A stretch of DNA of 56,476 nt, from positions 3,747-60,222 of the forward strand of contig NZ_LR213775.1 in NCBI RefSeq assembly GCF_900659865.1, given 5' to 3'. Shown here in pieces: positions 27,989 through 52,438 of the stretch (positions are counted from its first letter, which is position 1; every line of letters starts with the position of its first letter). The translations under genes were made by a program, and so were the position numbers. Source of the DNA: Hyella patelloides LEGE 07179. Lineage in GTDB: Bacteria > Cyanobacteriota > Cyanobacteriia > Cyanobacteriales > Xenococcaceae. Below the pieces are notes generated by a model. It did not search any database, was not told the DNA's origin, and saw only the letters and a list, made by a program, of their open reading frames with translations.

Positions 27989-29596
27989 TTAAAAAGCAAA
28001 TGTGGTGCGGATTGTTCCAATAATCAGATCGTCGTTATTGCTATTGTTATCAGGCGCACTTACCCAAATTACTCCAGGAGTAACAGCAATATTGTCGTTG
28101 AGTTGATATTGATAAAAAGCCTCAACACGGAAAGAAGTATCTTCATCTTCACCAAGGGCATCAATACTAGAATCTGTAACCCAAGGTTCCATCCCAACAA
28201 TTAATCCCGCTAAGTTGCCTTCTTTCCCTAAGTCTGGTAGGGCTAGAGTAGCAGCCCACTGCCAAATAGTTTGTGTTCCGCGATCTATTTGTCCATCTAA
28301 GCTAGAATTAGCAATTACTTTAGACAGACTACCCCACGCACCAACAATAATGCGATCGCTGACTTCCCAAGAAGCTTGTAAGCCATAAGAATCAGAAACA
28401 GTAGAGACTGCTTCGCCGAATTCTTCTTCAGTAAAGGATTGTAGATTAGCAAGGCTACTACCAGTTTCAGTATCACTTTGATCGCGACTATGGGTATATG
28501 TAGCAGCTAGAGTTAAGCTTTCAATAGGGTTAAAAGAAACTTGCCCAATGGCTGTATAAGGAGCGTTGAAGATACCACCGTTATCACTAGGATCGTTGGC
28601 AGGAGATGCTAAATACCCTGCACTCAGTTCAATTTTTTCTCCGAAGCGATGGGTAACGCCCAAACCAGCATCTCCCGCTGGAAGATAAATCGGGCTACGA
28701 GTTCCAAAGGCAGACACTGCCCCTGAACCACCATCCCCATCTAAAACACTGATCGTACTAGCAATATCATCGGCTGCTGTTCCCGCAGCACCTACTATAA
28801 CTTCTGTATTTTCACCAATGGGGAAGGTATAAAACAAGACTTCCAAACCAAGATCGTTATCGGCTGGTTCAGCAAAAGCTAGATCGCCCTGAAAAGTTCC
28901 TGTTTCATCAGCCAAAGAAGGGGCATTGCCTGTGGAAAGACGAGTAAATAGTAAATCATCTCCACTAAAGCTAGTTTCTAACTCTAATCTTACGCGATCG
29001 CCGAGTGTTACTTGACTATCAATATCTTCCGTATCATCGTTTCTTGAGCCAGTGAAGGCATTACTTAAGCCAAAGATTACCTCTCCCGCAAGTTTAGTAG
29101 TGGTGGAAAACTGATTATCTTCAAGAAATGCCGTACGACTTTCTAGGCTATCGATTCTACCGCCAATAGTGGCGAGTTCAGCTTCAAATTCTTGGGTCAA
29201 GCGATTGATAGTATCGATATCTTCTCTGACTACAGCTTCACTAGATGCAATCAAACGTTCAATCTGATTCAAACAAGAGTTTAAACCCGCAGCAAATTCG
29301 TAACGAGATAAAGCTTGAGAACCCCGATAAGTTTGGTTGGGAAAACCTGCAATACAACCATAGCGATCTACTAGAGAGCGTAATGCCTCATAAGCCCAAT
29401 CCGCAGGAGAAACATCTCTTAGTTGATTAACGTTTGTTACCTGATTGAAATTGTTAGTAATGCCTTGATTTTTTCCTTCTTGGCTATATTGTTGCAGTTG
29501 TTGAAAATTAGATTCTGAGGCTGTTTGAGCAACCACTGCATTAGAAAAACCTAGTAACGATGCAGCTACTAGAGCAAAAGTTTTGAAAGTAGACAT
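27989..29596 (-). CDS. Iron-uptake outer-membrane porin (SLH-OprB / SomA type)
   Basis: 535 residues: a signal peptide ending VVAQ, an SLH domain at about residues 56-110 (DVSPADWAYEALRSLVDRYG, GFPNQTYRGSQALSRYEFA), a coiled segment (about 112-155), then an OprB-type beta barrel ending in the C-terminal strand TIRTTFAF with a terminal Phe for outer-membrane insertion. Members of this family carry inorganic iron across cyanobacterial outer membranes. It sits next to ferritin-like, PiuC-like and EfeO-like sequences, which agrees. The barrel could still be a general SomA porin. Confidence 0.88.
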   Translation of the reverse strand: MSTFKTFALVAASLLGFSNAVVAQTASESNFQQLQQYSQEGKNQGITNNFNQVTNVNQLRDVSPADWAYEALRSLVDRYGCIAGFPNQTYRGSQALSRYEFAAGLNSCLNQIERLIASSEAVVREDIDTINRLTQEFEAELATIGGRIDSLESRTAFLEDNQFSTTTKLAGEVIFGLSNAFTGSRNDDTEDIDSQVTLGDRVRLELETSFSGDDLLFTRLSTGNAPSLADETGTFQGDLAFAEPADNDLGLEVLFYTFPIGENTEVIVGAAGTAADDIASTISVLDGDGGSGAVSAFGTRSPIYLPAGDAGLGVTHRFGEKIELSAGYLASPANDPSDNGGIFNAPYTAIGQVSFNPIESLTLAATYTHSRDQSDTETGSSLANLQSFTEEEFGEAVSTVSDSYGLQASWEVSDRIIVGAWGSLSKVIANSSLDGQIDRGTQTIWQWAATLALPDLGKEGNLAGLIVGMEPWVTDSSIDALGEDEDTSFRVEAFYQYQLNDNIAVTPGVIWVSAPDNNSNNDDLIIGTIRTTFAF

Positions 29597-50885: not shown

Positions 50886-51398
50886 TTAATCCTGATTTTG
50901 GGATAACTGCTCTTTCAATGATGCTAAAGAAGCCCAGCGACTATCAATTTGATGTTCATTTTCTGATGTAGTTTTAGCTGCACCCTGGCAATTTTCACCA
51001 CACAATCTACGTAAAGGCATAGCCAGCGAAAATTGCTCATATAGCCATTGTTCTGATTCAAAATGACCATTAGGAGGTAAAGTTTCTGATAAGTCCTCTA
51101 AGGACACTTCTCGCTCTAATGGAAGGCGATCTAAATCGGGAGCGACTGCTTCCAACCAGATTAATTCTGAGGTGTCAATTGCGATACGATAATTGTAGTT
51201 TTGTAAACAGCGATCGCAAATAAGAGTTACAATAGTTTCTGCTTTTACTGAGATTTCTAAAAAATTCCCCCCATGTCTGACGACCAAAATTCCTCTAATA
51301 GGGGTTAAAGTCTCTAAACCAGAAATCGGATCGTCTAAAGTAATTTCTCTGGTACTACGGGGTGCTTTTAGCAGTTGTGGAATATATAGGGCTTCCAT
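50886..51398 (-). CDS. DUF177 (YceD-type) protein
   Basis: 170 residues with the family core: ILVVRHGGNFLEISVKAETI, the cysteine pair LICDRCLQNY, and the C-terminal CGENCQG with the end-domain RWASLASLKEQL. YceD/DUF177 proteins are linked to 23S rRNA and 50S ribosome accumulation and often lie next to rpmF. Here the gene ends the array rpmH, rnpA, PH, yidC, jag, DUF177, but with a 550-base insertion between jag and this gene. Confidence 0.88.
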   Translation of the reverse strand: MEALYIPQLLKAPRSTREITLDDPISGLETLTPIRGILVVRHGGNFLEISVKAETIVTLICDRCLQNYNYRIAIDTSELIWLEAVAPDLDRLPLEREVSLEDLSETLPPNGHFESEQWLYEQFSLAMPLRRLCGENCQGAAKTTSENEHQIDSRWASLASLKEQLSQNQD

Positions 51399-51599
51399 CG
51401 TTAAATAAACTTCTTTCAGAAGTTAGGTCAAAGGAAAGAATAATTAATTTGAATTTCTAATTTATGTTTGCAAGACAGATTCGATTTTGAAAATAGCGTC
51501 CAGTATTAAAGTACTTACAATAATCATGCTTAAATCGTTGCTCAACAAGTAAGGTGAACAGCGATGCGACTCCGAAGCGTTCAGAACTCTTCACAAGGT

Positions 51600-51842
51600 T
51601 GTCTTGGAGGACGTTTCCTTGCTAGGTCAGCATTCGGTAATTCCGCGAATGCGCGAGGTCTCCAAGGGAAGTTTAAGTCGGACGCTTATACCTTCAGAAG
51701 GTATTATCCTACTTGATGGCAAGCTTTTTAGATGGGGGACGCGAGGTCTGACTTCTTACAAAGTGTCTGTATGCGAGAGCTTGAGGGATTATGGTGAACC
51801 CTTTGCTTACCCAATCACACTGTTGAGATTTCCTCAACAGCT
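51600..51842 (+). ncRNA. Candidate structured RNA or mobile-element remnant, unidentified
   Basis: GC-richer than its flanks. Six helices can be drawn: 51602-51609/51660-51667, 51630-51636/51646-51652, 51675-51683/51746-51754, 51688-51694/51698-51704, 51783-51787/51799-51803 and 51820-51827/51833-51840. Three contain a G-U pair when read on the plus strand and would be A-C mismatches on the minus strand, favouring plus-strand RNA. The motif CGCGAGGTC(T) occurs twice (51652-51660 and 51741-51748). An 84-codon ATG frame (51604-51858) fits inside it, but the peptide resembles nothing I know. The length and multi-helix plan recall HEARO/omega RNAs of IscB-type elements; this is a hypothesis only. 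Confidence 0.5.
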
Positions 51843-51917
51843 TGTACGCCACATCTGACGCAGGCTTATTAAACTTCTTCAGCCAAGAATGAATGAGTTT
51901 TGCTCTCTAGCACGAAC

Positions 51918-51935
51918 GAGCATCTTTTGATGCTC
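51918..51935. repeat. Short hairpin next to jag
   Basis: GAGCATC and GATGCTC (7-base arms) around TTTT, 15 bases beyond the jag stop. It may be the right boundary of the inserted element or a weak jag terminator. Confidence 0.5.
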
Positions 51936-51949
51936 CTCCCAATCATCTA

Positions 51950-52438
51950 CTAACGTAATTTAACTACCAGTTTGCGATCTGGCTCTTGACCACGACTTTC
52001 TGTAACCAAATCTGTCGAATTTTGCAAAAAAGAATGGATTTGTTTTCTTTCTGCGGAAGATAAATCGGGAACTTCAATTTCTTGTCCTGTATCTCTTACC
52101 TGGGCTGCGGCGGTATCAGCAATTTCTAATAGCTCTTGATACCGTGTTACGCGATAACCATCTAATTCAATAGTGTAAGAGCCTTGACTTTCAGAACTTT
52201 GAAGCAAATTTAATAATGTGTTGGCTAAATACTGAATTGCATCTATATTTTTACCTCTTTCTCCAATCAAAAGCTGGATTTGTTCGGAAGTTAGATGATC
52301 GATACCAATATTTAACCAACAAGATTCTCGATCTTCAGTAATGGTGGCAAATCCTTCTGAAGTCGCAGTAGTTGGCATTCCCATTAACGTTAACAAGTTT
52401 TCCAACCACTGCTTTCCGCGCTCTATTCGATCTTCCAT
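51950..52438 (-). CDS. khpB: RNA-binding protein KhpB (Jag)
   Basis: 162 residues with a KH-like domain (LIGERGKNIDAIQYLANTLL, the GxxG loop in ERGKN) and an R3H domain near the C-terminus (ELDGYRVTRYQELLEIAD, then LSSAERKQIHSFLQ, ESRGQEPDRKLVV). The N-terminal Jag domain typical of Firmicutes is short here. Jag/KhpB proteins bind RNA and influence cell envelope and division. It lies 9 bases after yidC, a position conserved widely. Confidence 0.9.
   Translation of the reverse strand: MEDRIERGKQWLENLLTLMGMPTTATSEGFATITEDRESCWLNIGIDHLTSEQIQLLIGERGKNIDAIQYLANTLLNLLQSSESQGSYTIELDGYRVTRYQELLEIADTAAAQVRDTGQEIEVPDLSSAERKQIHSFLQNSTDLVTESRGQEPDRKLVVKLR

Follow-up and report, generated by a model that had tools for sequence, protein, structure and literature searches.

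The GC-rich block between jag and the DUF177/YceD gene of Hyella patelloides LEGE 07179 is very probably a relic of repeated insertion, in which small palindromic repeats of a dispersed kind landed inside one another and fossilised as a stack. The block lies near one end of the window, that is, the whole stretch of 56,476 nucleotides that was analysed. The block itself is ordinary genome debris; it is the family behind one of its modules, M4, that deserves attention. For M4 we tentatively propose a 45-nt mobile hairpin that has so far gone undescribed. An enzyme acting in trans would move it as a folded single strand, and in cyanobacteria it would add 15 residues in frame to conserved proteins and an additional arm to a riboswitch. 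Protein-coding palindromes would then exist outside Rickettsia too, in a form about one third as long as the Rickettsia palindromic elements (RPE).

Nested repeats in the jag-DUF177 spacer

A domain scan places the DUF177/YceD gene at 50886-51398 and jag, with its R3H/KH domains, at 51950-52438, both on the minus strand. Open reading frames and Pfam matches uphold the gene array that an earlier, sequence-only reading had proposed, rnpA-PH-yidC-jag-DUF177/YceD. Its statement that this spacer is normally tight also holds: a jag search across 40 genomes matched in 39, H. patelloides included, and the spacer, which measures 551 bp in the window, is 14-179 bp long in all 29 relatives with fetched loci. 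The reported GC excess over the flanks is likewise real, with a GC content of 0.483 at 51556-51870 versus 0.282 at 51400-51555, 0.418 at 51871-51949 and 0.37 for the window. The motif CGCGAGGTC occurs exactly two times in the window, at 51652 and 51740, in keeping with the two occurrences noted before.

Searched against the H. patelloides genome, the block gives partial matches at 41 further places (E <= 1; E < 0.01 for 32), none longer than 72 bases. This recurrence bears out the proposal of a mobile-element remnant. Five modules, M1 to M5, can be recognised, and each is met again in the genome, either by itself or nested differently. Because the window modules have partly decayed and share about 76-96% identity with other copies, the borders listed here are approximate.

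51556..51870, no strand: GC-rich block of small dispersed repeats (GC 0.483, spacer length, modules elsewhere, absence from the spacers of 29 relatives)
51588..51635, plus strand: M1, which forms the left arm of a palindromic outer repeat (AGGTTGTCTTGGAGGACGTTTCCTTGC...), with copies in the H. patelloides genome and in relatives
51622..51692, plus strand: M2, a repeat of about 60-70 nt with 22 matches in the H. patelloides genome, window copy included
51702..51751, plus strand: M3, with copies L003, L010 and L014
51762..51777, plus strand: probable decayed 5' half of M4 (A, P1 GTGTC, TGT and the start of P2), cut by M5; by eye against L020 and L033
51778..51827, plus strand: M5, a second hairpin repeat, which interrupts M4 in its P2 arm; the left limit is approximate, and copies exist elsewhere
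51820..51854, plus strand: 3' part of M4, with the P2 hairpin, the CTTGTAC internal loop and P1' (GCCAC); covariance model R1 and blastn copies
51841..51867, plus strand: right end of the M4-carrying outer repeat (CTTGTACGCCACATCTGACGCAGGCTT), matched in L020, L025, L015, L017 and L019
51918..51935, minus strand: putative hairpin 3' of jag, GAGCATC-AAAA-GATGCTC, by eye

The coordinates first assigned to the feature, 51600-51842, are not module borders; they cut across the unit, because the modules extend from about 51588 to 51867.

Comparison by eye with other loci reveals the same modules in various arrangements. At L020, the order is M1, a tandem block, and an outer hairpin with M4 enclosing M5. 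L025 and L017 have M4 in the outer hairpin and no M5, L033 has M4 and M5 in a different outer palindrome, and nested combinations are also present in L003, L023 and L027. In L119 and L108 the nesting seems to be reversed, with M4 within M5. L003 contains M2, then a tandem-repeat block, then M3; the repeat nests at L003, L010, L020 and L027 all include, by eye, tandem blocks whose unit (ACGAAGATGCGACGGGTATAAAC-like) measures about 22 bp.

The modules differ in how widely they are found. The M1 consensus pattern yields 6 loci in a named genome collection, all from Xenococcus or Xenococcaceae MAGs, and M2 is matched just once in the other 25 genomes searched, over only 19 nt (E 0.008). M5 is about 50-55 nt long. 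Its right arm in the window, 51809-51827, is one of 16 M5-arm matches in the H. patelloides genome, and the arm is present in 21 of 27 genomes; a reversed-pattern control gave 0 matches in H. patelloides and 4 across all 27. Compensatory changes in M5 concern P1 only, in a tally of 22 rows of which one is an overlapping chance row. The R1 search of the window finds M4 at 51820-51847 with 30.3 bits (E 2.1e-5). Two further window matches have E values of 0.41 and 0.48; the former (28358-28383, 13.3 bits) lies inside a 535-codon frame and was taken as chance.

An exact empty site is not demonstrable at this spacer because the relatives' spacers are too diverged. In the close relatives L060, L061 and L063, the spacer consists of little beyond a terminator-like hairpin after jag (by eye), and the hairpin at 51918-51935 is perhaps a remnant of the jag terminator found at that place in these loci. 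Directly upstream of DUF177 is an AT-rich stretch, 51404-51475, with similar stretches in genomes G006, G009, G011, G013, G014, G017 and G026 and a weak match near Yfr1 in L018. It looks like another dispersed repeat, possibly one that bears a promoter.

The M4 hairpin and its distribution

M4 spans 44-45 nt. It opens with A and the 5-bp stem P1, continues with TGT and the 9-bp stem P2, which closes a loop of 3 nt, and ends with YTTRTAM (opposite TGT in an internal loop), P1' and GT. After the removal of 3 spurious regular-expression matches, 30 copies (24 distinct) align without a gap over 44 nt. Within this alignment 98.4% of the cells are paired, 11 of the 16 pairs have changes on both sides, and 0 of 500 shuffles score as high. 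Since the copies were chosen by 5/5 P1 pairs, pairing in P1 is partly built in; P2 was not a criterion. What remains of the structured-RNA idea first put forward for the block is the covarying fold of M4, a dispersed hairpin of 44-45 nt; it does not extend to an RNA of 243 nt.

A set of 72 distinct copies, which drew on 96 of 190 loci and on a set of 27, allows the pairs to be counted. Over the 936 cells of the P1/P2 core there are 913 Watson-Crick pairs, 13 G-T, 1 A-C and 9 others. An earlier count of 55 copies, which included end and loop-closing pairs, had found 7 G-T versus 7 A-C; the conclusion of no strand preference is withdrawn, given 13 versus 1 with more copies and without these pairs. 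(Copies not exactly 44 nt long were left out of both counts.) The G-T evidence for a folded plus strand of M4 is mixed, and the excess must be read with the caveat that the model search leans towards G-U. Further pairings link position 31 with 34 (C-G or T-A in 69 of the 72 distinct copies), 7 with 36 (T-A or C-G in 70) and 8 with 35 (G-T in 67). When 21 copies are folded together with their flanks, TGT pairs with RTA in about 12 of them (by eye).

The base that precedes the A of M4 is G in 56 copies, A in 16 and C in 1 (73 copies), which makes an inserted unit of 45 nt probable. Around the loop, five bases are seen in both orientations, as GTTTC (23), GAAAC (8), GTCTC (13) and GAGAC (1) among 72 copies, and the orientation differs even between orthologous P-ATPase inserts (L194, L219).

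With R1 at E <= 0.01 and the best 150 candidates per genome, 25 of the 27 family genomes contain M4, each with between one and about a hundred matches; G001 (same genus) and G025 gave none. There are 65 matches in the H. patelloides genome and 105 in G014, the highest number; the counts are approximate, since in a later search 5 of 39 matches covered nothing but the P2 palindrome, read on the other strand of a copy already counted. Among 386 genomes of the phylum, searched with stricter filters at E <= 1e-4 and with the best 16 candidates each, at least 11 contain M4: H. patelloides, one more of the family, and 9 in other families of the same order. G029 and G035, outside the family, have one weak match each. 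An exact pattern restricted to P1 GGGGC found no M4 in viral contigs. The TTTA form was absent from phages and the CTTG form from plasmids; the TTTA form is present in one plasmid record, AP018284.1 (Chondrocystis sp. NIES-4102 plasmid3). Rfam at gathering score gave no match for 20 more H. patelloides loci, 18 with M4 and 2 with M2. Heptamer CTTAGAG repeats flank the M4 copies L257, L259, L261, L263 and L264 of this genome (by eye).

M4 within genes and its possible movement

The M4 of AP018284.1 lies within the annotated CDS of a copper P-ATPase, BAZ47216.1 (L275 1117-3420). A search for this ATPase returned 30 loci, of which a text pattern caught 27 and left out 3. In 7 of the 27 (L191-L195, L218 and L219), M4 is in frame before KIVAMVGDGINDAP, as six inserts of 45 nt and one of 51 nt, and thus supplies 15 or 17 residues before the conserved GDGIND motif. 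M4 is missing from 19 of the 27 loci, and L196 carries an unrelated insert. L197 (G009, 92% identical) provides a clean empty site; the length of this loop varies in some homologues without M4 too. A helicase, L104 (SNF2/Helicase_C), also has M4 in frame, again 45 nt, and L222 and L224 are empty there (1 filled versus 2 empty among 4 loci, one of them missed by the pattern). The best NCBIfam match of the L104 helicase is DrmD, below cut-off. As to MITE features, the ends of M4 pair (P1), and the P-ATPase and helicase empty sites permit a target duplication of at most 1 nt (by eye).

Within H. patelloides, the flavodiiron protein (L190/L276) contains a 31-residue insert, which is M4 nested in another palindrome. 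Of the 18 loci from relatives that were set beside it, 17 do not have this insert, though some differ slightly in length for other reasons; at L277 there is an insert of another kind. A radical-SAM frame, L256 (TIGR04043, above cut-off), also spans a nested M4 copy. These are the 2 copies in recognisable genes among 24 inspected in this genome; another, L121, falls where a DUF218 frame ends, and 21 are in no open frame of at least 130 codons. The cobalamin riboswitch at L017 1400-1649 (H. patelloides, minus strand; 51.3 bits against a cut-off of 31.5) carries 57 nt in place of the 16 nt of the model. M4 is located there, at about 1492-1535 on the opposite strand, as a hairpin in a peripheral arm.

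M4 is also found in TnpB frames, directly after the Cas12f1-like TNB domain, at L172, L173 and L189 (outside the family) and at L178 (family). The count is of these four only; L165, L166 and L175, which had looked like TnpB ends from their flanks, were left out, and the L166 frame has no Pfam family. The four copies are near the expected guide RNA-coding site. At L099 1584-3044, M4 stands at the start of an open stretch with a frame for a group II intron-type reverse transcriptase/maturase (RVT_1, GIIM).

The clean 45-nt inserts, the core G-T excess with the conserved 8-35 G-T, and insertion inside hairpins together fit a folded single-stranded intermediate, which is our best guess for the movement of M4. 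M4 would move as a single strand, either RNA or ssDNA, folded into its hairpin, with machinery supplied in trans, and would survive where an insert is tolerated, such as spacers, the loops of other hairpins and the loops of proteins. In the jag-DUF177 spacer, repeat modules would have been inserted one inside another. There, M4 would have been split by M5, after which its P2 palindrome would have re-formed with new letters, as by template-switch repair. Split in this way, the window copy would be dead. Its 3' arm CAACAG pairs with CTGTTG of M5, and L020 retains CAAAAG; from the sequence, the change from a CAAAAG-type arm to CAACAG looks like template-switch repair.

The covariation of M4 can come partly from the same process, as arm homogenisation and spacer inversion are given as effects of template switching in PMC8604942 and PMC8794818. 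It is possible, though unlikely, that homogenisation of the arms explains all of the stem covariation with no need of a fold, and that M4 spread within larger minitransposons. Loops in both orientations are a signature named in PMC8604942, multibase compensatory changes are tied to the process in PMC8794818, and M4 is often within other palindromes. However, covariation is also present outside perfect palindromes, in pairs 31-34 (69/72) and 7-36 (70/72), and solo 45-nt inserts in two genes come without a larger carrier.

In its behaviour M4 resembles both cyanobacterial small dispersed repeats and RPE, and it differs in length from both as described. The small dispersed repeats (SDR) of Nostoc, reportedly described by Elhai et al. 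in 2008, are 21-27 nt, dispersed, nested, and near heptamer repeats, with folds that have compensatory changes. By these features, the likeness lies in many dispersed cyanobacterial copies (M4 in 25/27 genomes, the M5 arm in 21/27, M2 with 22 own-genome matches), in a fold backed by compensatory changes (in M4, and in M5 for P1 only), and in nested insertions with neighbouring heptamer repeats (CTTAGAG), and the difference in length, 21-27 nt versus 44-45 nt for M4 and about 50-55 nt for M5. SDR5 is mentioned in PMC4390886.

RPE, as described in PMC10969869 and PMC3733652, are about 150 bp and are found in frame inside genes and also elsewhere. M4 copies elsewhere share the in-frame gene insertion, and the window copy is intergenic; RPE are rickettsial and about 150 bp, M4 is cyanobacterial and 45 bp. 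REP sequences, with a GTAG or CGTC tag and RAYT transposases, appear in PMC3733652 as high-copy short palindromes, some cyanobacterial and some inside other palindromes. The TGTC before P2 of M4 recalls a CGTC/TGTC tag. Unlike a tag, though, its C is base-paired and changes together with the opposite base (C-G in 57 copies, G-C in 12, T-A in 2 and A-T in 1, of 72), and the site is enclosed by a second stem, P1. GTAG or CGTC directly precedes M4 in 0 of 73 copies. In the open-licence literature searched, no cyanobacterial in-frame palindrome was recognisable.

With its 45 nt, defined fold, precise in-frame inserts and hundreds of family matches, M4 lends itself well to studying by what route (RNA, ssDNA or replication slippage) the smallest mobile elements move, which work on SDRs and RPEs did not settle. 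For annotation, short hairpin-encoded protein inserts are to be expected in these cyanobacteria, and such clusters should not be taken for new RNAs.

Other readings of the spacer block

For jag or DUF177, no function of the block was recognised beyond a longer spacer. That the repeats serve as regulatory insulation, separating jag from DUF177 by an added terminator or processing site, is improbable: the spacers of L060, L061 and L063 do contain a terminator-like hairpin (by eye) and hairpins persist in the insert, but M4 copies occur in many unrelated contexts and the window modules have decayed.

Very little likelihood attaches to the view that the plus strand between jag and DUF177 encodes one functional structured RNA, whether HEARO/omega-like or an unnamed cyanobacterial RNA. 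Its appeal lies in the high GC and the several hairpins of the block. Hairpins are indeed present, for example at 51820-51840, but the block as a whole has no unusually stable fold: for 51560-51870, z is -0.81 on the plus strand, where 22 of 100 shuffles are as good, and -1.60 on the minus strand, where 7 of 100 are. An unusual whole-block RNA fold was thus rejected, and because folding is ordinary on both strands, the plus strand is not favoured by folding. Matches never exceed 72 bases in the H. patelloides genome or in 59 relatives (best 9 or fewer candidates per relative genome), and the block is missing from the spacers of 29 of 29 relatives.

Rfam argues in the same direction. Up to an E of 10, the search of 51300-52100, HEARO (RF02033) included, gave one match only, NPPA-AS1_2 (E 8.7), which lies inside jag and was taken as chance; at gathering score, the sole match in the whole window is a tRNA elsewhere. 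The same library recovers HEARO at two other loci, L176 and L170, which leaves the suggested HEARO/omega-like guide RNA unsupported. HEARO, omegaRNA and the remaining Rfam families were rejected at the locus, none of them matching in the block. HEARO and IscB omegaRNA are similar in being hairpin-rich and tied to mobile DNA; they differ in that RF02033 has no match in 51300-52100 and M4 is a 45-nt hairpin. A search for the IscB domain RRXRR (PF14239) gave no match in the H. patelloides genome; its control genomes gave none either, so the negative carries no weight.

Hardly any credence can be given to the frame 51604-51858 as a small protein gene: it is open over 84 codons, but it starts with TTG, has no Pfam match up to E 1, and crosses separate modules that occur elsewhere in other combinations, with indels. 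The HEARO RNAs mentioned above, at L176 1175-1399 and L170 8-179, belong to genomes outside the family, and M4 is present in the same two loci with no overlap.
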